A program made the position numbers and the translations under genes. Positions 15,332-32,189 of a stretch of 64,000 bases of DNA are shown here, in pieces. The DNA lies in contig NZ_QPJC01000004.1 in the NCBI RefSeq assembly GCF_003337235.1, forward strand, positions 248,001-312,000, given 5' to 3'. Within the stretch, counting starts at the first letter, position 1. Each line of letters begins with the position of its first letter. Origin of the DNA: Halopolyspora algeriensis. GTDB lineage: Bacteria; Actinomycetota; Actinomycetes; Mycobacteriales; Pseudonocardiaceae. The notes below the pieces were generated by a model that was given only the letters and a program-made list of their open reading frames with translations, made no database searches and was not told the DNA's origin.

Positions 15332-15448
15332 ATGAAACAGCACGGCCACAGCTCCATCGGCGTGACCATGAGCATCCACGCCCACGTGCCGGGTGACACC
15401 AAGCGGGAGATGTCCACCCGCATGAACCAGTTCCTGGGCGGCGACTGA
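15332..15448 (+). pseudogene. Integrase 3'-end relic 1
   Basis: The last 38 codons of a tyrosine recombinase, matching the end of the intact integrase at 30893-32056: HSSIGVTMSIHAHV, then DTKREMSTRMNQFLGGD. The catalytic Tyr of the intact copy (NIYAHV) is His here. Everything upstream of the GHSSIG block is lost. The downstream DNA keeps the double GATGTCA-like boxes, a terminator hairpin and a decayed att site in the same order as in the live element. Confidence 0.88.
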
Positions 15449-15469
15449 TGTCAACCGTGGACGTCGAAG

Positions 15470-15502
15470 GGGGCCGCCGGTGAAGCACCGACGGCCCCTT
15501 TT
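15470..15502 (+). terminator. Integrase terminator, relic copy
   Basis: A stem GGGGCCG/CGGCCCC followed by TTTT, the counterpart of the hairpin at 32077-32109 behind the intact integrase. Confidence 0.7.
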
Positions 15503-15504
15503 GT

Positions 15505-15548
15505 CCGGTCGGGACAGCGGGATGTGCACCCACGCCCCCTGCCTCCAG
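15505..15548. repeat. Decayed att site (tRNA-Pro 3'-half relic)
   Basis: Aligns with 32113-32157 from GGTCGGGAC to CTCCAG with several substitutions and about two missing bases. It lies after relic integrase 1 and its terminator, in the position att occupies in the live element. It marks an older insertion at the same tRNA gene. Confidence 0.75.
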
Positions 15549-15707
15549 TAGTGATCGGTTGGCTTTTTCGCAGCTCACGCGGGGCGCTAACCGAGTGGGC
15601 CACGTTGCTCGACCACTGGTTTGTTCGGGCTCGCGTCGGCCAGTGAGATGGTCCAGGCGGCGGAGCGTGCCGCGAATCCCCTGCCCGCACAGAGGAGGTA
15701 CATCACG

Positions 15708-16412: not shown

Positions 16413-16506
16413 TGCCCCTCGGATCCTGGCAGACCACCTGCCCGAGTGGACCTGGTGTTCTGCGAAACCAACCCGAGCCGCAAGGGAGCTGGTTTTCGCA
16501 GAACGT

Positions 16507-16580
16507 CCATGCCCACGTGCCGGATGACACCAAGCGGGAGATGTCCTCCCGCACGAACCAGTTCCTGGGAGGCGACTGAT
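16507..16580 (+). pseudogene. Integrase 3'-end relic 2
   Basis: The last 24 codons of the same integrase: VHAHVPDDTKREMSSRTNQF and the end. As in relic 1 the catalytic Tyr is His and the following Leu is Pro, so the two relics share an ancestor that was already inactive. Homology continues about 30 bases past the stop through the GATGTC boxes and into the first half of the terminator, then breaks. Confidence 0.85.
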
Positions 16581-16659
16581 GTCAACCGTGGATGTCGAAG
16601 GGGGCCGCCGATGAACAGCTGCGTGCCGTGGGACAGTGCCACCGCTGCCTGATTCGGCG

Positions 16660-17430: not shown

Positions 17431-17712
17431 CCGCACGAATCCGCCGATCCCTCATTGAGACGCAGTGGGACTCGTGATCGTCGTGGGCGTCTACTACTGA
17501 CTCGACGCCCTGGGATACCTGTGCTTACCGGGGTCGGTGGCGGCAACCTGGCCATGTTCCGGTCAGCGGTGTTGGTGGCCGTACTCACCACCGTGTCGGG
17601 TTGCCACCCGTTCGGTGAGTGGACACGATCGAAGTAAGGAACCCGGACGAGGCGCGCCGTACCCGGACCTGCAAAGACGGTGCACACGGGAGTGTGCTCG
17701 TCGGTGCAGAAC
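17431..17712 (+). other. Stretch without a recognised gene
   Basis: Nothing recognisable. It lies between two broken genes and is probably decayed DNA of the accretion zone. Confidence 0.4.
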
Positions 17713-18952
17713 TCAGTGGCCTGGGTGAAGCAGCCGTGCGGCGGTGAATGATCGTCGTAGCAGGATGACGGTCGTTGCTGTCAGACCGCCTGCTGCGGTG
17801 ATGGCCAATGCTGGTCCGATGGCGGAGGCGAGGGCGCCGACGGCTGCGGTTCCGAGTCCCTGGGCCGTCATGAGTCCGCTGCTGAACAGGCCGAAGCCTC
17901 GTCCGCGCAGATGCTCAGGAACGAGTTCGGCGAAAGCCGCCTGTAGCGGCAGCGAGTAGGCGACACATGTTCCTTCGGCGATGAGCAGGGCGATCCCGGT
18001 GGCCAGTCCGGGGCGTGTGGCGAAGGCAAGCAGTGGTGCGCCGGCGAGCAGCGCGAGTGGGAGGGCGAGGCGTGCGCGCATGGCGGGGCGGAACATCCGG
18101 GCGATGGCCACATCTCCGAGAACCATGCCGACCGGCAGCGCCGCGAGGAGGTAGCCGGCGCTGCCTTCCGGAAGTTCGGCGCGTGCGGCATAGGCGACCA
18201 GTGTGGCCTCGGCTCCGGCCAGGGCGGCGATCGGCAGCCACAGCGCCAGCAGCAGGTCGCGTCTGTTTCGGTCGCTGCGCAGCAGGTGGATATTGTTGCG
18301 CCACGTCTCGATGACCGTGGCCCGCAGCGGGAGGTCGGGTGTGCGGACGGCACGCTCTCGCAGACTCAGCCGCCAGATCGCTGCGGCTACCAGGTAACTG
18401 CCGGCGGCGAGCAGCAAGGCGACCTGCGGGGTCAGGAAGGCCAGCAACAGGCCTCCTACCGCGTAGCCGGCGATTTGCATGGTCGAGGAGATCGTCTGGA
18501 CGATCGATCGCCCGAGCACGTAGCGGTCTCCGGTCAGAATCTCCGGCAGCAGGGCTCCGGTCGAGGCCGACCGAAGTGGGGCGAGGGTCCCGGCCATGGC
18601 CACCAGCACCAACACCGCCCAGATGGGAAGCCATACCGCGGCAAGAATCCCGGTGACCGCGGTTTGCAGCAGGTCGTAGGCCACGAGCAGCCGGCGTTGG
18701 TCGTAGCCGATCGGCCAGGGCGGTCAGCGTGCTGCCGCCGATCGCTTGCGGGATGAACCCGGCGCCGAAAGTCACGGCGCTCAGCAGAGCCGAGTTGGTC
18801 GCGTTGAAGACCAGTACGGATAGCGCGAGGGTCCGCAGCGTCTCGGCCAGCAGCATGAGCAGTTGGCCCACCACGATGATCCGGAACTCGGGTTCGGCGA
18901 AGATATCGCCATACGTCGTGCGCCTGGGCTCGATCTGGTCCTGCGCAGCCAT
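17713..18952 (-). pseudogene. MFS transporter, single frameshift
   Basis: The N-terminal part (FRIIVVGQLLMLLAETLRTL, then FGAGFIPQAIGGSTLTALAD) and the rest (LLPEILTGDRYVLGRSIVQT and following helices) lie in two minus-strand frames. They join if one A is removed at about 18687-18690. The sum, about 412 residues with 10-12 helices, is the normal size of a drug-efflux-type MFS protein. GDRYVLGRSIVQT is typical of the actinobacterial MFS_3-like branch. It is either recently inactivated or a sequencing error. A member of the accretion zone. Confidence 0.85.
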
Positions 18953-19104: not shown

Positions 19105-19298
19105 GCGGACGAATCACGAGCTGGCCCTGCACGACGTCGGCTATGCCTCGGATCTGGCACACACTGGCTTCCACCCGCTCGACGGGGCGAACTTCCTGCA
19201 CGACGGCACCTACCCGGCTCGTGCACCTGGTCGCTCACCACTCTCAGGCCGCCCTCGAAGCGGAGAGGCGCGGGCTCTCCGCCGAACTGGCCGAGTTC
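19105..19298 (+). pseudogene. HD-domain protein relic
   Basis: Matches the middle of the intact HD gene at 24321-24899: LHDVGYASDLAHTGFHPLDG, then after a frameshift LVHLVAHHSQAALEAE. The fragment ends abruptly where the 338-bp repeat begins. It shows that the older element carried the same cargo. Confidence 0.88.
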
Positions 19299-19636
19299 CC
19301 GGCATCGGCCGCCAGGCCGCGCGCATGCTCGGCAGCCGGCCACCCGCGTGAGCGGTGCGCCGCAGGCGGGGTTGACGCCGATGTTCCCGGCTTTGATCCC
19401 GCGACAACAGCGGGATGGAGGCCGTACCAGGGCGAACCCGGCCGGTCGGCCGCGTTGTGCGCAACTCTGTTCCGCCTTCTTCCGACCTCGCGGCGTGCTC
19501 TCGCGCGAGTCAAGCCGCGGCGACCGCCCGGTGCAGAATCGAGCCTGCCGAGGCGACGCGCCAGGTCGCCCGGCACTTGGCCGTATCCAGCCCCGCCTCG
19601 CGGGGCGGCTTGAAGGCGTACAGAAAGTTCTCACAG
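19299..19636. repeat. 338-bp dispersed repeat, copy 1
   Basis: Aligns along its whole length with 22910-23246 at an estimated 85-90% identity by eye. It starts CCGGCATCGGCCGCCAGG and ends AAAGTTCTCACAG. Near the end is the hairpin GCCCCGC-CTC-GCGGGGC. No frame is conserved between copies, so it is not coding. Its left edge coincides with the break in the HD relic, which suggests insertion or recombination there. Confidence 0.85.
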
Positions 19637-19781: not shown

Positions 19782-20117
19782 ATGTCAGGCGAGAGACAGT
19801 TCGGCGTCGATACCGACGCACTGCGCAAGGCCATTAAGGAGCTTGAGAAAGCTCGTGACCAAGCAACGAAGCTCGAGCAGGACGCAGGCGGGATCTCCCC
19901 TGGGGAGCTAACAGCCCAGGACGCGCATACCCAGAAGGCGCGGCAAATGTTCCAAGATCGTATGACTGGTGGGGAGGGGTCACTTCGCAGTTCGGCAAGC
20001 CACATTGCTAGGAAACTCCAGGAGAAAATCGATGCGTACAACGCGACGCTGGAAGAGTACGGCCGTGCCGAGGACAACGCGACCGCTGACGCGCAGCACA
20101 TCGAACGACGTTCATGA
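19782..20117 (+). CDS. Small WXG-like helical protein
   Basis: A 111-residue, highly charged, helical protein. The pattern VDTDALRKAIKELEKARDQA then IARKLQEKIDAYNATLEEYG suggests a two-helix hairpin like WXG100/ESX substrates, though no W-x-G is present. It lies 15 bases ahead of a DUF3558 lipoprotein gene, a pairing frequent in Pseudonocardiaceae (recalled, not tested). GC content is lower than in the core genes. It may be a secreted or surface partner of the lipoprotein. Confidence 0.7.
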   Translation: MSGERQFGVDTDALRKAIKELEKARDQATKLEQDAGGISPGELTAQDAHTQKARQMFQDRMTGGEGSLRSSASHIARKLQEKIDAYNATLEEYGRAEDNATADAQHIERRS

Positions 20118-20132
20118 GAAACGGTGGAGAGC

Positions 20133-20723
20133 ATGACGAGCAACCTGCGGCGAATCATGATCATGGGAGTTGGCTTGGCCTCAAGTCTTGTGCTTGCCGG
20201 GTGCGCTGGAAGTTCCAGCATGGAACCGGGCGGTCAACCTCCTACGATGCCGAAGACATCCACCGGTCCGGAAATCATTAACCCGAAGAATGCTGCAGCT
20301 CTCGACGTCTGTGGCCTTCTATCTTCTGAGGCTGCTACGAAGCTCGGTGTCAAGCCTGGCGGCGAAAAGAACTCGAACAGTCTGAACCCGGCAGTCCCGG
20401 ATGGGTGCATGTGGGAGAGTCCGGATGGCGGTGGCAAGAAGATCGGCTTTACAGCGATTGATGGCCGTTCAATCAAGACCTATTACAAGAAATCTCATTC
20501 CTATACTGACTTCGAGAAAATCACGGTAGCTGGACATCCTGCGGTCAGAGCGAACAAGACCGACCCGATGACAGGCGGAAGCTGCGATATTTACTTGGCG
20601 AGCAAGAAAAACCAAGTCGTTTACTCGTACGCTCGGACTCCCAAAGTTGGTGAGGTAAATCCTTGTGACTTGAGCAAGCAAGCACTGGAGCTGTCTGTGT
20701 CGTCGTGGCCCACCGCTAAGTAG
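20133..20723 (+). CDS. DUF3558-family lipoprotein
   Basis: A 196-residue lipoprotein. The signal peptide (MIMGVGLASSLVLAGC) ends in a lipobox, LAGC, so the Cys would be acylated and the protein anchored outside the membrane. The mature part has the DUF3558 pattern: LDVCGLLSSEAATKLG, DGCMWESPDGGG and a C-terminal CDIYLASKKNQVVYSY. Function unknown. It follows the WXG-like gene closely and is probably co-transcribed. The ATG at 20133 follows a GGTGGAG site; a GTG three codons upstream is possible. It sits in the older element, left of the inner att. Confidence 0.85.
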   Translation: MTSNLRRIMIMGVGLASSLVLAGCAGSSSMEPGGQPPTMPKTSTGPEIINPKNAAALDVCGLLSSEAATKLGVKPGGEKNSNSLNPAVPDGCMWESPDGGGKKIGFTAIDGRSIKTYYKKSHSYTDFEKITVAGHPAVRANKTDPMTGGSCDIYLASKKNQVVYSYARTPKVGEVNPCDLSKQALELSVSSWPTAK

Positions 20724-20747: not shown

Positions 20748-21113
20748 GAGCTGGTCTCACGTCGGCTCGCTGCCGTGGGACGTGATCCGGAGGCACGACT
20801 GTTCACCGGCCCGCGTGGAGGGCGCATCAGTACGGCGGTACTGCGCGATGCCACGTGCTGGGACGAGGTGGTGACCAAGCTCGGGTACGAGCACCTGCGG
20901 CGGCACGATTTGCGCCACACCGGACTGACGTGGATGGCCGATGCCGGTGTTCCGGTGCACGTGCTGCGCAAGGTGGCCGGGCACGGCACCATCACCACGA
21001 CCCAGCGCTACATTCACCCGAACCAGCAATCGATCAACGATGCCGGAGCCGCCCTGTCCGCATTCCTGAAGGGGGATCGGTCCCCACGTGGTCCCCACCT
21101 GAGGGCGGTGTGA
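20748..21113 (+). pseudogene. Tyrosine integrase, C-terminal fragment
   Basis: About 121 codons of a phage-type integrase of a different subfamily from the intact Int. It keeps RRHDLRHTGLTWMADAGVPV, VLRKVAGHGTITTTQRYIHP and an intact Tyr, but lacks the SAM-like domain and first catalytic Arg. It ends 78 bases before the inner att copy and has its own terminator. It must come from another element that used the same tRNA site. An ATG/GTG inside could still make a fragment protein. Confidence 0.88.
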
Positions 21114-21190: not shown

Positions 21191-21236
21191 CTGGTCGGGA
21201 CGGCGGGATTTGAACCCACGACCCCCTGACCCCCAG
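21191..21236. repeat. Inner att copy (left end of the AICE)
   Basis: 46 bases identical to 32112-32157, running from the CCA end of tRNA-Pro to the first base of its anticodon loop. No tRNA 5' half follows, so this is the displaced att copy. Confidence 0.95.
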
Positions 21237-21481: not shown

Positions 21482-22816
21482 ATGGCCAGAAATCATCACC
21501 AAGAAGTCTTGGACGGAAATATTGGGTTCTTCTGGCCTATCGATGCAAATGGTCAAAGGCTGGAAGCCGATGATCAGCGCGGTTATATTCACCTGAAAGA
21601 GGATGGACGAATAAGACTGGAAACCTTAGATGAAAACCCAATACTCTCTTTTGCTAGACAGAGGGAGGATCGTGTCGATCGCCCAGATGCACTGTTAGGC
21701 AGCACGGCTAGCTCTTCAGTTCTTGTGCTTAACCTTTTTGGTTCCAGATCTACGGTTAATGTCGGCGGCTATCGAGCCTCTGTACGGAAATATTCTGCTC
21801 GGACTCTGATAAGTCGAGTCGACTTAGAGAATTTGTCCAGCATCTGTGCAACGGGCATCGAGGGAGAATTTTTTGAGGTGGAACGTTGGGCTCAATTTGA
21901 ACCTTCATGGGAAGCACTTAAACGCGATGAAAGCGGGCGTTTGAGAAGGTTTAGCATTGAGCTGGAGCCAATAATAGAACAAGATTCTGAAATCGACTCT
22001 AATCGATCGCTATACCTGTCCTCGAAATGGAAGGTGACTGGTCCATCTAGTAGGCGCACTATCTACTCGCCTGTAGTCGTGGGCTGTCGTTCCAACTTTC
22101 CAGTTCCATTTTCCGATCTCTTGAATCCTGTCCTTGCGGTGCAGAATTTACTCAGTATGGCATACGGTGGATTTGTTTCTGCTGCCGCAGGATCAGCTTT
22201 TTTGGATTGCAGGACCGAGCCCCGCGCTAGCCCATTTTGGACGACTCCGTTGATGCACACTCCTGCGGCGGTTCAGTCACCGCGGTCGATGACTCATGTT
22301 CCTCAATTTTCACTCGATATGCTTGGCGGCGTATCAGGATTGGCGAATTGGGTAAAATTAACTGATGAACATTCGCGGGCGGTAAAACCAATCGTTAACC
22401 AGTACCGATTTGGAGGATACTCGCCTGAATTGAAATTGATGGAAGTTGCCGCGGGGATAGAGTACTGGGTGAACGCAAGTCGTAGGAATTGTCAGTGGGC
22501 TAGGGTTGCTCCTAAGTCGCTCGCCCTGGCTGAGCATGTGGGACATCCGTTCAAGTCATGGATCAGATACGCCGAAAAATGGGCGGACATCTTTTGGCGT
22601 AGATATGGACAATTAAAGCATGAGCCCAACTATGAGCCCGATATTTATGAGATTAGCGTCCTTGCGGATGTGGGAGTTCATTTGTTGACTGCCGAATTGT
22701 TGAATTTTATATCGGACGCGAATAAAGACCCGGCGAGTCGATATTTTGAGTCTCCCCAGATGGTTTCATTGAAAGAGCGGATTCAATCGTTACTTGGCGG
22801 TCCCGGCGACGATTAA
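21482..22816 (+). CDS. ApeA-like protein with C-terminal HEPN-type domain (candidate antiphage)
   Basis: A 444-residue protein with no membrane segment. Residues about 1-290 are mostly beta (IGFFWPID, GYIHLKEDGRIRLETL, SSVLVLNLFG), like the N-terminal domain of ApeA, an abortive-infection protein. Residues about 310-440 are helical and contain R374-Y-G-Q-L-K-H380, an R-x5-H fit to the HEPN RNase motif. If correct, it would cleave RNA on phage infection. The call rests on architecture and memory of the family, not a search. The gene is AT-rich for this genome and has a CAGGGGG ribosome site. It heads the accessory end of the AICE. Confidence 0.55.
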   Translation: MARNHHQEVLDGNIGFFWPIDANGQRLEADDQRGYIHLKEDGRIRLETLDENPILSFARQREDRVDRPDALLGSTASSSVLVLNLFGSRSTVNVGGYRASVRKYSARTLISRVDLENLSSICATGIEGEFFEVERWAQFEPSWEALKRDESGRLRRFSIELEPIIEQDSEIDSNRSLYLSSKWKVTGPSSRRTIYSPVVVGCRSNFPVPFSDLLNPVLAVQNLLSMAYGGFVSAAAGSAFLDCRTEPRASPFWTTPLMHTPAAVQSPRSMTHVPQFSLDMLGGVSGLANWVKLTDEHSRAVKPIVNQYRFGGYSPELKLMEVAAGIEYWVNASRRNCQWARVAPKSLALAEHVGHPFKSWIRYAEKWADIFWRRYGQLKHEPNYEPDIYEISVLADVGVHLLTAELLNFISDANKDPASRYFESPQMVSLKERIQSLLGGPGDD

Positions 22817-22840
22817 TTACACGCAACACGCACTCGCCGC

Positions 22841-22884
22841 CATCCCGCTGTCCTTGCCGCCCCACTGCCGGGGTTATCGGCGTC
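22841..22884. repeat. 44-bp repeat, copy 2
   Basis: 38 of 44 bases match 5294-5337. It lies 25 bases left of the 337-bp repeat, so the full repeat unit may begin here. Confidence 0.6.
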
Positions 22885-22909
22885 AACCCGGCAACCACCG
22901 CTCACGCCA

Positions 22910-23246
22910 CCGGCATCGGCCGCCAGGCCGCGCGCATGCTCGACAGCCGGCCACCGGCGTGAGCGGTGCGCCGCAGGCGGGGTTGATGCCGATGTTCCCG
23001 GCTTTGATCCTGCGGCAACAGCGGGATGGCGGCCCGACCAAGGCGAACGCGGCCGGCCGGCCGCGTTGTGCGCAACTGTGTTCCGCCTTCTTCCGCCCTC
23101 GCAGCGTGCTCTCGCGCGTGCCAAGCCGGGCGCGACCGCCCGGCGCAGAGCCGAGCCTGCGAGGCGGCGCGCCAGGTCGCCCGGCTCTTGGCCGCGTCCG
23201 CCCCGCCTCGCGGGGCGGCTTGAAGACGTACAGAAAGTTCTCACAG
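22910..23246. repeat. 337-bp dispersed repeat, copy 2
   Basis: Full-length counterpart of 19299-19636. Here it separates the two defence-type genes: it begins 94 bases after the first and ends 51 bases before the second. It has much higher GC than either gene. It keeps the terminal GCCCCGC-CTC-GCGGGGC hairpin and the AAAGTTCTCACAG end. It may be a non-coding RNA, a MITE-like element or a recombination cassette border. Confidence 0.85.
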
Positions 23247-23297
23247 TGTTGGCCTTACCCTATCGCTGTTACAGCCCCGTGACCATGCCGGGGCATC

Positions 23298-24293
23298 ATG
23301 AGTTCTATGGATGATGTGAGTCTTGCGCGACCTGAGGGAATTGACGAGCCTGCGTGGACGTCGATTACTAAGCATCGCGATCGCCTCAAGGACGCGCTAT
23401 TGCGCTCGGATCGTCCTCACGTGCTCGGGTGCGCTAAAGATCTTGTGGAGTGTGTTGCTCGCGTTGTTGTCTCGGAACTTGGAGACATCACCAGTGAATC
23501 CGATGACTTCCCTACGGCATTAGGAAAGGCCCACAAAACCCTTAAACGTCAACCTGGAATTGACCTTACCGACGACCCATCCCTTCAGAAATTAGCACAA
23601 GGTGCTAAAAATATTGCGATTGCAGTAAATGAATTTCGAAATTCGCGTGGAACCGGGCATGGTCGTGTTAGAGATCCAATAGTAGAAGACGAAGTATATG
23701 AAGCTTCCCTCATGGGAGCCTTGCTTTGGGTTCGATGGAGTCTCCGTCGCTTAGAATACTTGATTCGCGGAATGCCGAATTCTTTGATACGCGATCTCAG
23801 TGAAGGCGCTAAATTTTACCGAGAGGATCTTGCCGAGCGTTTGGTAGCTGCCAGTCTCGCAAACCTTGAGACGGATACACTTCAGCGGCTAGGGAAGGCC
23901 GTTGGACAACGCGCAAAGACAGGTACATTCAATGTACAAGAGGAGGGAGTCGAGAAGTGCAGCGAGTCTAGCGACCTAATGCAGTGGCCAGTTGGATACC
24001 GAGAAGGACTAGCCAGAAGCATGTTTTTTAGCGAAAATGGCCGAGTTCAGGTAACACAGTGGTCTTCAGAGTATGCAGCTGGAGTAATTTCTGGAATACC
24101 CGACCCTGAATCCATATTAGACGAGATGATAAGTATACTACCAAATGTGGATAGTTCTGACCTTAATAGCATCAACGATGATAGCATCATCTACAAAAGA
24201 CTCATCGACAGTAAGGACTTATTTGAAGAACCTTACCGCTCGAAATGGATAGAGTTTGCAGTTCGATTCAAGCCGTCGAGTCATCCATTTTGA
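23298..24293 (+). CDS. Abi_C-like abortive infection protein
   Basis: A 331-residue soluble protein. The N-terminal half has helices with PHVLGCAKDLVECVARVVVS and the motif FRNSRGTGHGR (113-123), which matches the Abi_C/HEPN-like signature R-N-x-x-G-T-G-H-G. R114-x6-H121 would be the RNase pair. The C-terminal half is polar and unrecognised. Abi_C proteins are linked to phage exclusion, but few have a defined mechanism. Codon use is AT-rich like 21482-22816 and unlike the AICE core. The ATG at 23298 lacks a strong ribosome site; another Met follows at residue 4. Confidence 0.7.
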   Translation: MSSMDDVSLARPEGIDEPAWTSITKHRDRLKDALLRSDRPHVLGCAKDLVECVARVVVSELGDITSESDDFPTALGKAHKTLKRQPGIDLTDDPSLQKLAQGAKNIAIAVNEFRNSRGTGHGRVRDPIVEDEVYEASLMGALLWVRWSLRRLEYLIRGMPNSLIRDLSEGAKFYREDLAERLVAASLANLETDTLQRLGKAVGQRAKTGTFNVQEEGVEKCSESSDLMQWPVGYREGLARSMFFSENGRVQVTQWSSEYAAGVISGIPDPESILDEMISILPNVDSSDLNSINDDSIIYKRLIDSKDLFEEPYRSKWIEFAVRFKPSSHPF

Positions 24294-24320: not shown

Positions 24321-24899
24321 ATGGTCCTTTCCGGGTATCCTAGTGTTGTGACGCTATTCGCCTGGGCCTACGGAGTCGCAGAACACAAGCTCGCTAGCGT
24401 GCTACCGCGTCGCTGGGAGCACGTGCAGGGCGTGGCTCGTCAGGCGCGCAGCTTGCAACCTATGGCAGGTAGTGATGCGGACCTGTTGGAGTCGGCGGCG
24501 ATCCTGCATGACGTGGGCTATGCGCCGGACATCGCGCACACTGGCTTTCATCCCCTGGACGGGGCGAACTTCCTTCACCTGATCGACGCACCCGCTCGGC
24601 TCGTGCATCTGGTTGCTCACCACTCCTACGCCGCACTCGAAGCTGACCTACGGGAACTCTCTGCCGAGCTGTCCGAGTTCGAGGATGAGCGAGGCTCGCT
24701 GCGGGATGCGCTGTGGTACTGCGACTTGACGACGACCCCGGACGGTGAAGTCATCGACGCTCGAGACCGGATCGCTGAGATTCAGCAGCGTTACGGCCCG
24801 GATCACCTGGTTACTCGGTTCATCACGCAAGCATCGCCGGAACTGCTCGCGGTGGTCGATCGCACGGAACGCCGGCTTTCGGCTGTCGCGGCTGGCTAG
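24321..24899 (+). CDS. HD-domain phosphohydrolase
   Basis: A 192-residue HD-superfamily protein. The metal residues are His34 (RRWEHVQGVARQ) and His63-Asp64 (AAILHDVGYAPDIAHTGFHP); a later His-His (LVHLVAHHSYAALEA) fits the helix-4 ligands. Such enzymes hydrolyse nucleotides or signalling phosphates; the substrate is unknown. It converges on the NUDIX gene with a 4-base overlap of ends. A truncated relative sits at 19105-19298, so it is a standard cargo of these elements. The start is uncertain: ATG 24321 lacks a ribosome site and GTG 24348 is an alternative. Confidence 0.88.
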   Translation: MVLSGYPSVVTLFAWAYGVAEHKLASVLPRRWEHVQGVARQARSLQPMAGSDADLLESAAILHDVGYAPDIAHTGFHPLDGANFLHLIDAPARLVHLVAHHSYAALEADLRELSAELSEFEDERGSLRDALWYCDLTTTPDGEVIDARDRIAEIQQRYGPDHLVTRFITQASPELLAVVDRTERRLSAVAAG

Positions 24900-25366
24900 C
24901 TCAGGTACGGCCGGGCTCGGTTTTCCAATGCGTGCTGGATGCGTAGGCGCATCGACGAGTCAATGCTCAAAGTCTCGATGTGCTCAGGCTCTACCCAGTG
25001 CACTCGGCGGGATTCCGAGCTCGTTCGCAGTTCTCCGCCGGTCGGCTGGGCGTGGAAGACAATGGAGAACTCCTGGCGGACTTCGCCGTCGTCATAGGCG
25101 ATGACGTGGCGCGGATCGGAGTAGATGCCGACGATGCCGGTCACCTCGACTTCGATGCCGGTCTCCTCGCGGATCTCGCGCATGGCGGCTTCTCGCGTGG
25201 TTTCGCCGATGTCCTGTGCTCCTCCGGGCACTGCCCAGAGCCCGTTATCGGTGCGCTCGATCATCAGGACATCGCCGGACTCGTTCCGCACGATCGCAGC
25301 GACAGCGACGACCAGGCTGTTGGCTCTCGGCGCCCGCGGATCGTCGTAGTAGTCCGTCTTCGGCAT
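24896..25366 (-). CDS. NUDIX hydrolase
   Basis: A 156-residue protein with a complete Nudix box at 49-71 (GAQDIGETTREAAMREIREE followed by TGI), which binds Mg and hydrolyses nucleoside diphosphates linked to another group. LVVAVAAIVRNESGDVLMIE is the standard first strand. A substrate cannot be assigned. NUDIX genes next to regulators are a known feature of AICEs. It is transcribed from the same side as the XRE/PLD-like regulator 9 bases upstream, probably as one unit under the operator at 26143-26184. Confidence 0.93.
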   Translation of the reverse strand: MPKTDYYDDPRAPRANSLVVAVAAIVRNESGDVLMIERTDNGLWAVPGGAQDIGETTREAAMREIREETGIEVEVTGIVGIYSDPRHVIAYDDGEVRQEFSIVFHAQPTGGELRTSSESRRVHWVEPEHIETLSIDSSMRLRIQHALENRARPYLS

Positions 25367-25375
25367 ACCTCCTGC

Positions 25376-26119
25376 TTACCACGGGTGCGGCGTGGCGGTC
25401 TCCCAGACGGCATCGAAGCTGTCCGCATACGTGGTGAACAAGTCCCCGGCTGAGAGCCTGCGCAGGTGCATCGCCGGGGCGTGTGCGGCGAGTTTCCCGA
25501 ACACGTGCGGGTTGACGATCATCTCGTCGTCGAACCGGTAGATCGAGTTGTACAGCACGGTGCCGTGCGTCCGGACCTCGATACCGGGGACATCCTTCAG
25601 CGGCTTGAAGTGAGCCAACGCGTGGTCGACCTTGGCCGAGATCGTGTCACGGCCGATCCCCTCGTCCAAACTGCGCTGGATCACGGCATCGCTGTCCCGG
25701 TCGCCGAAGAGCAACCGTATCCGTGCCCCATTCTCGGCTTTGGCCTTGAGCGTGTTGAGCAGGTTCGGCTTTTCCGTCATGAACATCCCCACATAGACGA
25801 GGATGTCCACATAGGTCGTGGCGCGCTCCAAGAGACGGTCCCATAGATCGTTCGGTACCGCGTTGCGGTGCGGGCACACCTGCACGATCTCCGACTGACT
25901 GACCTCCTCTGCCTTGTCGTCCGACACGGCAGACGGCCAGAGGTAGCGCTCACGTTCCCCCAGCTTGGCGGCGATGGCATGCCGGTACTTCGGATACGGT
26001 GTGCGCTCCTTGGTGATCCACCGCTCAACGGTCTTGGGGTCCACCTTGAGTTCCTCGGCCAGCTCGGCTGGCGTGATCCCTTGGGACTGGATCGCATCGC
26101 GGAGACGTTCATTCGCCAT
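25376..26119 (-). CDS. XRE-type regulator with PLD-like C-terminal domain
   Basis: A 247-residue protein. Residues 1-55 form a helix-turn-helix (ITPAELAEELKVDPKTVERW). From about residue 95 a phospholipase D-like sensor region follows: TYVDILVYVGMFMTEKPNLL, ARIRLLFGDRDSDAVIQ and VLYNSIYRFDDEMIVNPHVF. An H-x-K catalytic motif is not seen, so it is likely a ligand-sensing or degenerate domain. Proteins of this build are common in Streptomyces AICEs. It sits beside an operator of repeated GGACGTC sites and diverges from the SCO3933-like gene, so it probably controls both sides. Confidence 0.85.
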   Translation of the reverse strand: MANERLRDAIQSQGITPAELAEELKVDPKTVERWITKERTPYPKYRHAIAAKLGERERYLWPSAVSDDKAEEVSQSEIVQVCPHRNAVPNDLWDRLLERATTYVDILVYVGMFMTEKPNLLNTLKAKAENGARIRLLFGDRDSDAVIQRSLDEGIGRDTISAKVDHALAHFKPLKDVPGIEVRTHGTVLYNSIYRFDDEMIVNPHVFGKLAAHAPAMHLRRLSAGDLFTTYADSFDAVWETATPHPW

Positions 26120-27028: not shown

Positions 27029-27808
27029 ATGGCCAAGTCTAGCCGTACCCGTCGCCGCTCGGCGACTCCGGACTTCGTGGAGATCCTGCCCCAGCCCAAG
27101 CAGTGGATCGGATTTTCCATCCTCGGGCTACTGGTGCGCTGGCGCGCCGAACTGACCGGCGCCGCCGTGCTGCTTGCCGTGTTCGTCTGGCTGGATGGCT
27201 TCGGCAGCGCGGTGCTGACCGTGGCGGTGCTGGTCGGTGTTCCGGCCGTGCTGCTGGCCGTGCCGCACACGCGGCGGTTCCTGGTGGCTCGCGTGTGGTG
27301 CGTGGCCGATCGGCACCGGCTACGGGCGTGTTTGAAGCGCACCAAGGTGCGCACGATGAACCGGGACGGGACCTATCCATTCATGCTGTGGGCGCGTCCC
27401 ACCACCACCGGGGAACGGATCTGGTTGTGGCTGCCCGCCGGGACGGCGGCCACCGATATCGAAAACTCCCTGGAATACGTGGCTCCGGCCTGCTTCGCCC
27501 GCAGCGCTCGGCTGCACCGGCCCAAGAAGGTCACCACGTTCGTGGCCGTGGACATCATCCGCCGCGATCCCCTTGAGGCGAAGAAACCGGTGTCCTCGCC
27601 GCTGGCCGGCTTCATGGGCACCCGCTCTGCACCGAGTGATTCCGAATCGGTGACTCCGATCAAGGCCGCTTCCTCGGCCTCCGAGTCCCAGGCTTCCGAA
27701 CCGTCTGATTCGGCTTCGACCAGCACAAAAACCACCACCGCGGCCAAGCCAGCTGCGGCCGGTGCGGTGGTCGTCAACGGAGAGGACCTGAGTGACTATG
27801 TGGACTAA
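27029..27808 (+). CDS. Membrane subunit preceding the transfer ATPase (split Tra N-terminus)
   Basis: A 259-residue protein with two close transmembrane segments at about 30-90 (LTGAAVLLAVFVWL, VLTVAVLVGVPAVLLAV), a cytoplasmic domain with GTYPFMLWARPTTTGERIWL, and a Ser/Thr/Ala-rich low-complexity tail of about 60 residues. In single-chain TraB/FtsK proteins these parts precede the motor. Here the reading frame ends and the ATPase starts 17 bases earlier in another frame, so the protein is probably the membrane anchor of a two-part DNA translocase for mycelial transfer. Confidence 0.8.
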   Translation: MAKSSRTRRRSATPDFVEILPQPKQWIGFSILGLLVRWRAELTGAAVLLAVFVWLDGFGSAVLTVAVLVGVPAVLLAVPHTRRFLVARVWCVADRHRLRACLKRTKVRTMNRDGTYPFMLWARPTTTGERIWLWLPAGTAATDIENSLEYVAPACFARSARLHRPKKVTTFVAVDIIRRDPLEAKKPVSSPLAGFMGTRSAPSDSESVTPIKAASSASESQASEPSDSASTSTKTTTAAKPAAAGAVVVNGEDLSDYVD

Positions 27809-28619
27809 AACCCGCTCGGCGGACTCGGTGCCGGTTTCGGGGCTGTCCATCTACGATCCCGTGCACCTCGGCATCGACGAACACGGCCGCCGCGTGGACA
27901 TCGAACTCGTCTACCGCAACATCCTGTTCGGCGGTGAGCCCGGCTCGGGCAAGTCCAGCGGACTGCAAAACATCATCGGGCACGCCTCCATGTGCACCGA
28001 CTGCCAACTGTGGCTGTTCGACGGCAAACAGGTCGAACTCGGCCTGTGGCGCTCCATCGCCGACGTGTTCGTCGGCCCGGACATCACCGAGGCCATCGAC
28101 CGGTTGGAACAGCTCCAAAAGGAAATGGATCGTCGTTACGACGAGCTGGACCAGGTGCGACGCCGCAAGATCACCTCGGTGGATCCGGTCGATGTGATCG
28201 TGGCCGTCATCGATGAGATCGCCCTGTTTTCGGCGACACTGGGCAGCAAGGACCAGCAAGAGCAGTTCGTGCGTCTGCTGCGGGATCTGGTGGCCCGCGG
28301 GCGTGCTGCCGGGGTCATCGTGGTCGCGGCCACGCAGCGGCCCTCGGCCGACATCGTGCCGACCTCGCTGCGCGACATCTTCGCCTACCGGTGTGCCTTC
28401 CGGTGCACCACCGAGGCCAGCTCGGACACCATCCTCGGCCGCGGCTGGGCTCAACAGGGCTACTCGGCCACCGCGATCGCACCGGAGAACCTCGGTGTCG
28501 GCCTGCTGCTGGCCGAAGGTGGCATTCCCCGGCGGATGAAATACGCCTACCTCACCGACGCCCACATTTACGGCCTGGTCGAACACTCCCAACACCTGCG
28601 CACCCAACACGCCGCCTGA
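27792..28619 (+). CDS. FtsK/SpoIIIE-type DNA transfer ATPase (TraB-like)
   Basis: A 275-residue RecA-fold motor: Walker A GGEPGSGKSSGL, Walker B VIVAVIDEIALFS, then VARGRAAGVIVVAATQRPSA and RDIFAYRCAFRCTTEASSDT, typical of FtsK/SpoIIIE motors of AICEs, which move double-stranded DNA between hyphae. No membrane segment and no gamma winged-helix domain are visible; the anchor is in the overlapping upstream gene. The GTG start overlaps that gene by 17 bases, with an ATG two codons later as alternative. A hairpin follows the stop. Confidence 0.92.
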   Translation: MTMWTKTRSADSVPVSGLSIYDPVHLGIDEHGRRVDIELVYRNILFGGEPGSGKSSGLQNIIGHASMCTDCQLWLFDGKQVELGLWRSIADVFVGPDITEAIDRLEQLQKEMDRRYDELDQVRRRKITSVDPVDVIVAVIDEIALFSATLGSKDQQEQFVRLLRDLVARGRAAGVIVVAATQRPSADIVPTSLRDIFAYRCAFRCTTEASSDTILGRGWAQQGYSATAIAPENLGVGLLLAEGGIPRRMKYAYLTDAHIYGLVEHSQHLRTQHAA

Positions 28620-29156: not shown

Positions 29157-30683
29157 GTGACCGTCTCGACCGCAACACTCACCCCCGGCGCCCACGCGGC
29201 CCCGGGGGCGGGTGCTGTTGCCGAGCCGGACGACTGGGCCGGCCTGCTCCACCGCGCCGCCCAAGCCGACTACGACCGGTGGCTTTCCCACATCACTCCG
29301 GCCGCCGGATGTCGCTACCCCATCCAACTCGCCGGACGCTCGCGCACCGCCGACGCCTCCACCGGCGAAATCCTGGCCGATCTCGACACCGCCCGGTTTC
29401 CCGACGGGGTGCTCTACACCGCCTGCGGCAACCGGCGCGCCTCGGTGTGTCCCTCCTGCGCCGAAACCTACCGCGGTGACACCTTCCACCTGGTGCGCTC
29501 CGGCCTGCTCGGCGGCAAAGGCGTGCCCGACACCGTGGCCGAGCATCCGACCGTGTTCGTCACCCTGGCCGCTCCCTCGTTCGGCGAGGTGCACACCGCC
29601 CACAAAACCGGCAAGCCCTGCCACCCCCGCCGCGAGCCGCACATCTGCCCGCACGGGATCACGTTCTCCTGCCTGCGCCGCCACGAATCCGGCGACCAGT
29701 GGGCCGGACAGCCGTTCTGCCTGGACTGCTACGACCACTTCAGCCAAGTCGTGTTCAACGCCTACGCCGGGGAACTCTGGCGCCGCACCACCATCAATCT
29801 CCGCCGGGCAGTCGGCAGACTGGGCAAGGACTACGGTGTCAAGCTGCGCGTCTCGTATGCCAAGGTCGCCGAGTTCCAAGCGCGCGGCGTGGTGCACTTC
29901 CACGCCCTGATCCGCCTCGACGGCGTCGATCCGGCCGACCCGGCCGCCATCGTGGCCCCGGATCCGCGGATCCATCCGGCCACGTTCGAGCACACCATCC
30001 GCCAGGCCGCGGCCTCGACCAGCTTTCGCACCCCAGCACACCCGGACCAACCCGACGGGTGGCCCATGGCCTGGGGACACCGCTCCATCGACACCCGCCA
30101 AGTCAAGTTGACCGTGCGCGACACCGACGATTCCGGCGCGCTCACCGACGGCGCGGTGGCCGGATACCTGGCCAAGTACGCCACCAAGGCCACCGAGGAA
30201 ACCGGCCACGTCTCCCGCCGCCTCACCCACGAGACCGTGGGTTACCACGCCGACATGCACACCCACCCCGGCCGGCTCATCGCCGCCTGCTGGTACCTCG
30301 GCCAACTCCCCGACGGGCTGGCTTACCTCGATGACGACGTGAGCGAGCGCATCGCCTTCCAACACCGCTGGGCACGGCTGCACCGGTGGGCGCACCAACT
30401 CGGCTTCGGTGGCCACTTCTCCACCAAGTCGCGGCGCTACTCCACCACCCTCGGTGCACTCCGCGCCGCTCGCCGCTCCTGGAACCGCCCCGACCCCGAA
30501 CAGCCACCCACCGAGCCGACCGAACCCGGCGACGAGCCCGACATCCTCACCCTCGGACAACTCATCTTCGCCGGAATCGGCTGGCACACCAGCGCAGACG
30601 CCCAACTCGCCAACACCGCAGCCGCCCAAGCCCGCGAGCGACGCCAAGCTGCCCGCGAAGAACTCGAAACTTTCCCGCCATAG
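29157..30683 (+). CDS. RepSA-like replication initiator
   Basis: A 508-residue initiator for rolling-circle-type replication of the excised element. The N-terminal zinc-type cluster is YTACGNRRASVCPSCAETYR. Two further Cys/His groups follow (HICPHGITFSCLRRH, FCLDCYDHFSQ). The HUH motif is VVHFHALIRLDG, and AGYLAKYATKATEETG holds the candidate nicking Tyr region (YLAKYATK). Length and order match RepSA of pSAM2. The tail is Pro/Glu-rich. The start is a GTG after GAGGAG. It is directly followed by Xis and Int. Confidence 0.92.
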   Translation: MTVSTATLTPGAHAAPGAGAVAEPDDWAGLLHRAAQADYDRWLSHITPAAGCRYPIQLAGRSRTADASTGEILADLDTARFPDGVLYTACGNRRASVCPSCAETYRGDTFHLVRSGLLGGKGVPDTVAEHPTVFVTLAAPSFGEVHTAHKTGKPCHPRREPHICPHGITFSCLRRHESGDQWAGQPFCLDCYDHFSQVVFNAYAGELWRRTTINLRRAVGRLGKDYGVKLRVSYAKVAEFQARGVVHFHALIRLDGVDPADPAAIVAPDPRIHPATFEHTIRQAAASTSFRTPAHPDQPDGWPMAWGHRSIDTRQVKLTVRDTDDSGALTDGAVAGYLAKYATKATEETGHVSRRLTHETVGYHADMHTHPGRLIAACWYLGQLPDGLAYLDDDVSERIAFQHRWARLHRWAHQLGFGGHFSTKSRRYSTTLGALRAARRSWNRPDPEQPPTEPTEPGDEPDILTLGQLIFAGIGWHTSADAQLANTAAAQARERRQAAREELETFPP

Positions 30684-30704: not shown

Positions 30705-30893
30705 ATGACCACAGTGGAGCCCGTTCTGCTGCGCGTCGAGGAAGCTGCCGAAGCCCTGCGCGTTGGTCGAACGCGGATCTATGACCTGATCCGGCTCGGT
30801 CGACTGCGGTCGGTCAAGGTGTCCGGTTCGCGCCGTATCCCTCGTCAGGAGCTCGATGCCTACGTCACCTCGCTGCTCGAGGAGGAGAACTGA
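30705..30893 (+). CDS. xis: Excisionase (MerR-like helix-turn-helix)
   Basis: A 62-residue DNA-binding protein with LRVEEAAEALRVGRTRIYDL and SGSRRIPRQELDAYV, the winged-helix fold of AICE excisionases. It would bend DNA at attL/attR so that Int can excise the element. An AAGGAGAG site lies 21 bases after Rep. Its stop overlaps the Int start by one base (TGATG), so Xis and Int are made together, as in pSAM2. Confidence 0.93.
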   Translation: MTTVEPVLLRVEEAAEALRVGRTRIYDLIRLGRLRSVKVSGSRRIPRQELDAYVTSLLEEEN

Positions 30894-32056
30894 TGCCGCG
30901 TAAGCAGGCCAACGGGATGGGCACCATCGTCCAGCGCAAGGACGGCCGGTACCACGCGGCTGTCTACGTCTACACGCCCACCGGCGAACGGGTCCGCAAG
31001 TACGTCTACGGCAAGACCTGGCAGGAGGTGCACGACAAGCGCATCGAGCTGCTCGACAACAACCGCAAGGGCATCCCCTCGGTGACCTCAAGCATGAAGC
31101 TCACCGACTATCTCGACTACTGGTTACGGGAAGTCGCTCGGCATGAGCTGCGCACGAAGACGTTCTCCGATTACGAGGCTCTGGCATCGCACTACATACG
31201 CCCGCACCTGGGTGCCAAGCGGTTGAACGCGCTCGGCGTCGGTGATGTTCGTACCTTCCTGCGCAAGGTCAGTACCCAACCGGGGCGCAAGGGCAGGAAG
31301 CTGTCCCCTCGTACGGTGCAGTACATTCATGCGGTCCTGCGCAGCGCTCTGCAACATGCGGTACGCGAAGAGCTGATCGGCCGCAACGTCGCCAAGCTGG
31401 TGTCGGCTCCCAGCAGCGAGGAGCACGAAGTCGCGCCGATGGAGCCTCGGCACGCACGGCGGCTGATCGAACACGCCCAACAGCACTGGCTGTGCGCGCT
31501 GTGGTTGGTCTACCTCGCCACCGGGCTTCGCCGGGGCGAAGCTCTGGGGCTGGCCTGGTCGGATGTCAACCTGGCCACCGGGGAGCTGCGAGTCCGGCGG
31601 ACGGTCCAGCGCGTCAAAGGTGACATCGTTTTCGGCGAACCGAAGACAGCACGGTCACGGCGAACCCTGCACCTGCCCGAGATCTGCGTACACGCGCTCA
31701 AGCAGCACCGGGAGACCGTCGCCGAACGGTCGCTGCCCGCCCAGCGCAATCCCCACCCGCACCAACCGGCAGATCTGATCTTCGTGACCCGTACCGATCG
31801 GGTCATCGATCCCCGCAGCGTCAACCGCGCTTTCGGCACCCTGCTCAAGCAGGCAGGGCTCGAGCATGTCCGGGTGCACGATCTCCGACACACCTGCGCG
31901 ACGTTCCTCAAGATGCAGGGCGCCACCGACCGGGAGGTCATGGAACAGCTCGGCCACAGCTCCATCGGCGTGACCATGAACATCTACGCCCACGTGCTCG
32001 ATGACACCAAGCGGGAGATGTCCACCCGCATGAACCAGTTCCTGGGCGGCGACTGA
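30893..32056 (+). CDS. int: Tyrosine integrase of the AICE
   Basis: A 387-residue site-specific recombinase. The N-terminal arm-binding domain is QRKDGRYHAAVYVYTPTGER, the core-binding SAM-like domain covers about 65-165, and the catalytic domain has LATGLRRGEALGLAWSDV (Arg I), RVHDLRHTCATFLKMQGA (His-x-x-Arg), LGHSSIGVTMNIYAHV (His and nucleophilic Tyr). All catalytic residues are present. It reads toward the tRNA-Pro gene, whose 3' half is the crossover target. Three 3'-end relics of integrases lie to the left, two of them of this same type. Confidence 0.96.
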   Translation: MPRKQANGMGTIVQRKDGRYHAAVYVYTPTGERVRKYVYGKTWQEVHDKRIELLDNNRKGIPSVTSSMKLTDYLDYWLREVARHELRTKTFSDYEALASHYIRPHLGAKRLNALGVGDVRTFLRKVSTQPGRKGRKLSPRTVQYIHAVLRSALQHAVREELIGRNVAKLVSAPSSEEHEVAPMEPRHARRLIEHAQQHWLCALWLVYLATGLRRGEALGLAWSDVNLATGELRVRRTVQRVKGDIVFGEPKTARSRRTLHLPEICVHALKQHRETVAERSLPAQRNPHPHQPADLIFVTRTDRVIDPRSVNRAFGTLLKQAGLEHVRVHDLRHTCATFLKMQGATDREVMEQLGHSSIGVTMNIYAHVLDDTKREMSTRMNQFLGGD

Positions 32057-32111: not shown

Positions 32112-32157
32112 CTGGTCGGGACGGCGGGATTTGAACCCACGACCCCCTGACCCCCAG
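32112..32157. repeat. Outer att copy (right end of the AICE, within tRNA-Pro)
   Basis: 46 bases identical to 21191-21236. It forms the 3' half of the functional tRNA-Pro gene. Confidence 0.95.
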
Positions 32158-32189
32158 TCAGGTGCGCTACCAAACTGCGCCACGTCCCG
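32113..32189 (-). tRNA. tRNA-Pro (anticodon GGG)
   Basis: A 77-base tRNA with CCA encoded. Acceptor stem CGGGACG/CGTCCCG, D-arm GCGC/GCGC, anticodon stem CCTGA/TCAGG with loop CTGGGGG, T-arm GTGGG-TTCAAAT-CCCGC. All stems pair, so the gene stays functional after element insertion, because the element restores the 3' half. It decodes CCC and probably CCT codons. Confidence 0.97.

Follow-up and report, generated by a model that had tools for sequence, protein, structure and literature searches.

Within the window, i.e., the whole stretch of 64,000 nucleotides that was analysed, an AICE of about 11 kb was found to be integrated into a tRNA-Pro(GGG) gene. Both ends are flanked by direct repeats of 46 bp, which are 100% identical. 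The left repeat, attL (21191-21236), corresponds to the 3′ part of the tRNA-Pro gene, and the right repeat, attR (32112-32157), lies inside the tRNA gene itself (32113-32189, minus strand). The core starts with a gene for an HD phosphohydrolase (mdp-like, PF01966; 24321-24899, plus strand), followed by genes for a Nudix hydrolase (24896-25366, minus strand) and an HTH/DUF5919 (PLD-like) regulator (25376-26119, minus strand, assigned by a domain match). Further to the right are the genes for an FtsK-like transfer protein (27792-28619, plus strand, assigned by homology), a RepSA-like rolling-circle initiator (29157-30683, plus strand; NF041486, E 7e-106) and a tyrosine integrase (30893-32056, plus strand; an open reading frame with integrase homology), which ends beside attR. 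The order of the HD, Nudix, regulator and FtsK genes is kept in relatives. The element was identified as an AICE by its integration into a tRNA gene with direct repeats and by its genes for Rep, an FtsK-type Tra and Int. An HD-Nudix-XRE cluster of AICEs has already been described, and according to excerpts of that source (PMC3218068) the AICEs pSE211, pMEA100 and Sco5349 (mdp-nud-xre) share with the AICE of the window the tRNA integration, the HD-Nudix-regulator cluster, FtsK/Tra, Rep and Int. In the same excerpts RepAM/Prim-Pol is given for the transfer-protein clades of pMEA100 and pSE211, whereas the AICE of the window has a RepSA-type initiator.

The initial annotation had placed two AT-rich genes at the accessory end of the element, and this was confirmed. 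Both open reading frames, gene 1 (21482-22816, plus strand) and gene 2 (23298-24293, plus strand), are present, and attL lies immediately to their left, in an AICE that has RepSA, FtsK/Tra, Xis (excisionase) and Int. Their GC content is 0.48 (GC3 0.43-0.46), compared to 0.63-0.70 for the AICE core genes that were checked.

The region to the left of attL contains several remnants. Two relics of integrase 3′-ends (15332-15549 and 16501-16610) are about 90% identical to the end of the present integrase gene, and another integrase fragment is found at 20775-21113. A relic of an older related element (19126-19636, plus strand) consists of an HD-gene fragment (19126-19298) that is fused to a copy of a structured non-coding element (19299-19636). 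As judged from these sequences, the integrase relics indicate a repeated occupation of the tRNA-Pro site, and the accretion of several AICEs at one site has already been described (PMC9513070). In addition, genes for a WXG100-like small protein (19782-20117) and a DUF3558 lipoprotein (20124-20723) are located between the integrative-element relics, and in another genus (L039) WXG-like genes likewise follow a copy of the structured element. A Guanidine-III riboswitch aptamer was detected at 17624-17686 on the plus strand (43.5 bits, cut-off 36); no obvious transporter gene follows directly downstream on the same strand, and a nearby MFS gene (17713-18684) is encoded on the other strand.

Two HEPN-type candidate proteins

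Gene 1 encodes a protein of 444 amino acids, which is composed of an ApeA_NTD1 domain and a helical C-terminal HEPN-like domain. Residues 14-290 matched ApeA_NTD1 (PF18862) with an E-value of 9.8e-36 and 124 bits (cut-off 25.5). The score for HEPN_Apea was 12.7 bits and thus below the cut-off of 24.4, while two orthologues reached 26.0 and 27.0 bits. A profile-profile comparison of the C-terminal part with canonical ApeA, for which the profiles were very small, revealed no similarity. In an AlphaFold2 model (pLDDT 85, pTM 0.85) the N-terminal part is rich in beta strands and the C-terminal part is helical. A Foldseek search with this model against the PDB and viral models did not yield a significant match, and the VIA rows of the fold search were confined to the N-terminal part, where they matched common beta folds with a best Z of 7.2. 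PADLOC did not match gene 1, and a sequence search of the PDB with the gene-1 profile retrieved nothing. The assignment of the N-terminal domain to ApeA is strong, that of the C-terminus to HEPN_Apea weak.

The search for relatives of gene 1 yielded five sequences with 30-36% identity, which come from mycobacteria, an Actinomadura and a Pseudonocardiales MAG; none was present in the viral contigs, phages and plasmids that were searched. The alignment with canonical ApeA-type proteins revealed that the arginine of the R-N-Y-x-x-H motif is replaced by tyrosine in all six members of the gene-1 subfamily. The conserved motif is Y375-N/G-x-L-K-H380 (YNxLKHxP). The R374-x5-H380 motif on which the HEPN assignment had been based is indeed present, but R374, one residue before the tyrosine, varies among the orthologues (R, N, T, T, S, R), and after shuffling the gene-1 protein would be expected to contain an R-x4-6-H pattern 2.4 times. 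Gene 1 thus has the architecture of ApeA, but lacks the canonical conserved motif. Other HEPN families with an altered motif have been recorded by Anantharaman et al. (PMC3710099). It resembles ApeA (PF18862 and PF18739) in its beta-rich N-terminal domain, its helical, HEPN-like C-terminal domain, its single-gene nature and its defence-island neighbours, but differs from it by an invariant tyrosine instead of the arginine of R-N-x3-H. For ApeA, deoxydinucleotides are reported as activators in the title of a preprint that PMC13405049 cites.

The neighbours of the gene-1 relatives include type I restriction-modification systems, PDC-S21, a Ppl-like ATPase, a Ymh HEPN protein, a GHKL ATPase and a second ApeA-type protein, and this proximity to defence genes supports a defence role. 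At one locus (L056, 1758-11420) a type I restriction-modification system, PDC-S21 (DUF4917), the gene-1 relative and a second ApeA_NTD1/HEPN_Apea protein are encoded within 10 kb. In two mycobacteria (L066, 6276-6935; L054, 6578-7441) a gene with a HEPN-like motif (DWRHGHVAHR in L066), but without a Pfam match, overlaps or directly precedes the gene-1 relative; it may represent a second HEPN partner, so that in general a pairing with another protein is conceivable. The gene-1 protein is probably an ApeA-like sensor-effector, the beta-rich N-terminal domain of which would sense a phage-derived signal. Its C-terminal HEPN domain may work with an altered site (Y375, K379, H380) or may have become regulatory.

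Gene 2 encodes a protein of 331 amino acids with an N-terminal HEPN domain (residues 12-157) and a helical C-terminal domain (residues 160-322). It matched Abi_C (PF14355) with 26-27.8 bits (cut-off 24). Residues 12-155 of the structural model (pLDDT 87.5) aligned to three HEPN structures over 115-127 residues with Z-scores of 12.2, 10.9 and 10.7, while all other rows were at 5.9 or below; helical bundles can reach Z values of about 13 by chance, but the top three rows were all HEPN. R114 and H121 (R-x6-H, within FRNSRGTGHGR) are invariant in all 15 aligned sequences. By its profile and its predicted fold gene 2 is thus an Abi_C HEPN protein, as had been proposed. The assumption of two HEPN-type defence candidates is accordingly well founded for gene 2 in profile, fold and motif, and it holds for gene 1 in the sense of an ApeA-like protein, the site of which is non-canonical.

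The domain order of gene 2 differs from that of other Abi_C proteins. In the close gene-2 subfamily an N-terminal HEPN domain precedes a helical domain of about 170 residues, whereas the HEPN domain is C-terminal in the other Abi_C proteins that were aligned, as described for AbiJ. Gene 2 shares the HEPN fold and the invariant R and H with AbiJ/Abi_C (PF14355; Anantharaman et al., 2013, PMC3710099), the relatives of which are annotated as abortive infection family, but the order of the HEPN domain and the extra domain is reversed. By description, Tha from a S. aureus prophage is also similar, i.e., a single-gene HEPN RNase with an R...H motif on a mobile element, but its HEPN domain is C-terminal and it is triggered by a phage tail protein (PMC11087260). 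The C-terminal domain of gene 2 reached Z values of only 4-6 with helical-repeat folds, and a sequence search of the PDB with the gene-2 profile yielded designed helical proteins and chance matches only. Relatives of gene 2 are found on chromosomes, in M. abscessus prophages and on Streptomyces plasmids, where they bear the name abortive infection family protein. The gene-2 protein is probably a homodimeric HEPN RNase (R114/H121) under the control of its C-terminal helical domain, which upon infection would cut RNA and stop growth.

A structured element at the border of a cargo slot

Between the two genes a GC-rich non-coding block had been noticed, a copy of which exists further to the left. 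The repeat is real, as 22910-23246 recurs at 19299-19636 with 91.7% identity over 339 columns. Its extent had to be revised, however, because the 337-bp repeat represents only the 3′ four fifths of a conserved structured element of about 410 nt (22836-23246, plus strand), which is part of the AICE backbone; in the left copy, a truncated element is joined to the HD-gene relic.

An alignment of 25 copies yielded a consensus fold with 57 pairs, 26 of which are changed on both sides. In total, 95.1% of the cells can pair, compared to 36-44% when the partners were slid. The covariation score was 0.249 versus 0.111 (sd 0.007) in shuffles, and none of 500 shuffles was as high; as the copies are related, the shuffle control alone is not a probability, whereas the slid control keeps the relatedness. 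The fold includes a long hairpin (22841-23029, plus strand), which is built of the helices 22841-22851/23018-23029, 22863-22889/22980-23006 and 22898-22908/22956-22966; here 25 of 47 pairs are changed on both sides and 93-97% of the cells are paired. Two small hairpins (23169-23172/23184-23187 and 23203-23208/23213-23218; together 23169-23218, plus strand) are mostly invariant and covary weakly. They are followed by an unpaired 3′ tail (23219-23243, plus strand), CTTGAAGACGTAMAGAAAGTYCTCAC, which forms the sharp right end of the element. Among the pair cells G-T was found 72 times and A-C 14 times (p 1e-10), and the covariance model favoured the plus strand in every copy that was matched well on both strands, e.g., with 122 versus 52 bits for model R1 on the long hairpin. 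The G-T excess and the strand scores together indicate that the plus strand is the folding strand.

That the repeat is a mere decayed gene or insertion sequence is extremely unlikely: an accidental reverse-strand reading frame does run across it, but the compensatory pair changes and the constant place and orientation argue against this view. A coding function of the element end on the reverse strand (GENFLYVFKP), which was considered because of third-position-like changes, was likewise rejected in the light of the covariation and the constant context.

Of 297 genomes of the family, 38 contain the 3′ end of the element, CGGCTTGAAGACGTAMAGAAAGTYCTCAC, and the reversed pattern, used as a control, occurred 0 times among the genome rows listed. 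A covariance-model search of 247 genomes of the class retrieved only the window's own genome, with 10 of thousands of candidates scored per genome, a depth at which a missing match does not mean absence. An Rfam search of the region yielded no family on the element up to E 1, and its consensus did not match any of 72,556 plasmids. A scan of the consensus gave no support for a promoter pair, and the element contains no repeated 8-10-mers of the kind expected for a transfer site. No description of the structured element was found in a literature search of mostly open-access articles or in the excerpts of PMC3218068. Additional copies are present on contig C1 of the same genome (L037, 5001-5380, and L036, 7483-7618). 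They are 11 kb apart, no AICE genes are close by, and they are probably relics.

The surroundings of the element were compared at 20 loci from 11 genera, which had been picked from element-motif matches and several of which stem from one genus and are not independent. At 19 of these 20 loci the element is followed by a variable slot and then by the AICE core, in the same order and orientation. Downstream of the slot the order is HD, Nudix, HTH/PLD, SCO3933-like, FtsK and Rep, as far as the piece reaches, and the HD gene was recognised in 16 of the 19 loci. The element therefore marks the left and the HD gene the right border of the slot. The initial annotation had offered a regulatory RNA or a cassette border as possible roles of the block. 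The border is strongly supported, since the element marks the left edge of the slot in 19 of 20 related loci, while the suggested tie to the HEPN genes was not upheld, as the block belongs to the AICE backbone.

The slot length ranges from 75 bp to 7 kb, and it is nearly empty at two loci (L122, L124), where the HD match starts 75-82 bp after the motif. Pfam was applied to 20 cargo proteins and PADLOC to 10. The cargo includes type I restriction-modification systems (L128, L135, L137), a UG22 reverse transcriptase (L127), an OLD-type ATPase-TOPRIM protein (L129), NACHT (L133), CHAT (L125), PDC-M36A (L123), HNH (L118) and a transposase (L120). The description of the slot as a defence hotspot is an observation and not a statistic. 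Restriction or abortive-infection genes have already been described as cargo of AICEs (PMC9513070). A protein of 209-217 amino acids (DLSHLESWFS type) was recurrent (L125, 12408-13052; L126, 10952-11602; L129, 10615-11241); its gene is the last slot gene before HD each time, and the L129 protein is weakly Abi_2-like.

Two acquisitions or one module

Gene 2 occupies the conserved cargo slot between the element and the HD gene, while gene 1 is located further left, on the attL side of the element, i.e., there are two insertion points. The distance from the T-arm of the att site to the element motif is 2010 bp in the window, compared to 524-545 bp in the relatives with a recognised tRNA T-arm (L122, L135, L137), and the difference is about the size of gene 1.

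The proposal of a two-gene RNase-based module was not supported. In a search of 299 genomes of the order, relatives of gene 1 were found in three and relatives of gene 2 in nine genomes besides the window's own, but in no other genome were both present. Elsewhere in the genomes searched the two genes are unlinked, and their relatives are located in unrelated defence islands, plasmids or prophages. None of the other loci scanned that contain a gene-1 or gene-2 relative has the structured element, and it is present in AICEs that lack such genes. It is thus very unlikely that the two genes form one defence module, in which a degenerate gene-1 HEPN domain would sense for or regulate the intact gene-2 HEPN protein and the GC-rich block would be a regulatory RNA, although the genes are adjacent on the same strand and both AT-rich, the canonical arginine is missing from gene 1 while the motif of gene 2 is intact, and in two mycobacteria the gene immediately before the gene-1 relative has a HEPN-like motif. 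The absence of co-occurrence, the different insertion points and the folded gap of 480 bp between the genes speak against it.

Alternatively, one or both genes could serve the AICE in a toxin-like maintenance (addiction) or exclusion function instead of acting against phages. Toxin-antitoxin systems with HEPN toxins exist (PMC3710099), and toxin-antitoxin genes are known on AICEs (PMC9513070). However, the list of open reading frames contains no obvious partner antitoxin gene beside either gene, the relatives reside in defence islands, and the slot of related AICEs holds known defence systems, so that this explanation appears improbable. We consider it likely that the accessory end of the tRNA-Pro AICE carries two independently acquired single-gene HEPN-type abortive-infection candidates, and that the repeat between them is the AICE's own element.

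Possible functions of the element

Most likely, the element is a cis site of the AICE life cycle, be it origin-like, transfer-related or an RNA, and regulates neither gene. We favour a role as an origin-like or transfer-related site, since the element is kept without cargo, is independent of the strand of the cargo and invariably has the orientation of Rep.

A single-strand origin or another folded single-stranded DNA site in RepSA rolling-circle replication or transfer is a serious candidate, albeit short of a probable one. The element is non-coding and is retained without cargo, its folded plus strand has the same sense as Rep, it is always oriented like Rep and FtsK wherever these two were found, and RepSA-type initiators are encoded by these AICEs. 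The sso/sti sites of rolling-circle plasmids are similar in being non-coding, heavily folded and in a fixed orientation relative to rep. However, a known sso sequence was not recognised, none of the 72,556 plasmids matched, and G-T pairs in DNA are less stable than G-U pairs in RNA. It is somewhat less likely, yet conceivable, that the element acts as an RNA, i.e., a leader, an insulator or a small RNA, which controls the expression of the slot cargo. The strong covariation, the frequent G-U on the plus strand and the fact that the cargo often begins 40-200 bp downstream on the same strand are in line with this idea. In contrast, the cargo begins with a gene on the opposite strand at three loci (L118, L121, L131), and the element is retained at the nearly empty slots. 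A wider interpretation, that the element represents a new class of structured nucleic acid (folded single-stranded DNA or RNA) in the integrative elements of actinomycetes that serves as a capture or exchange point for defence cassettes, and that the AICE lineage shuttles defence systems, is decidedly unlikely at present.

Irrespective of its role, the element is strongly covarying and apparently undescribed, and whether it takes part in replication, transfer or gene capture is directly accessible to experiments. Gene 1 exposed an ApeA-like subfamily with a tyrosine at the HEPN site where an arginine is expected. Taken together, an odd gene pair has led to a testable general rule, namely that the stretch from the element to the HD gene in this AICE family is a place to seek unknown defence genes, and it is worth searching since type I restriction-modification, a defence reverse transcriptase, OLD and NACHT were found there.
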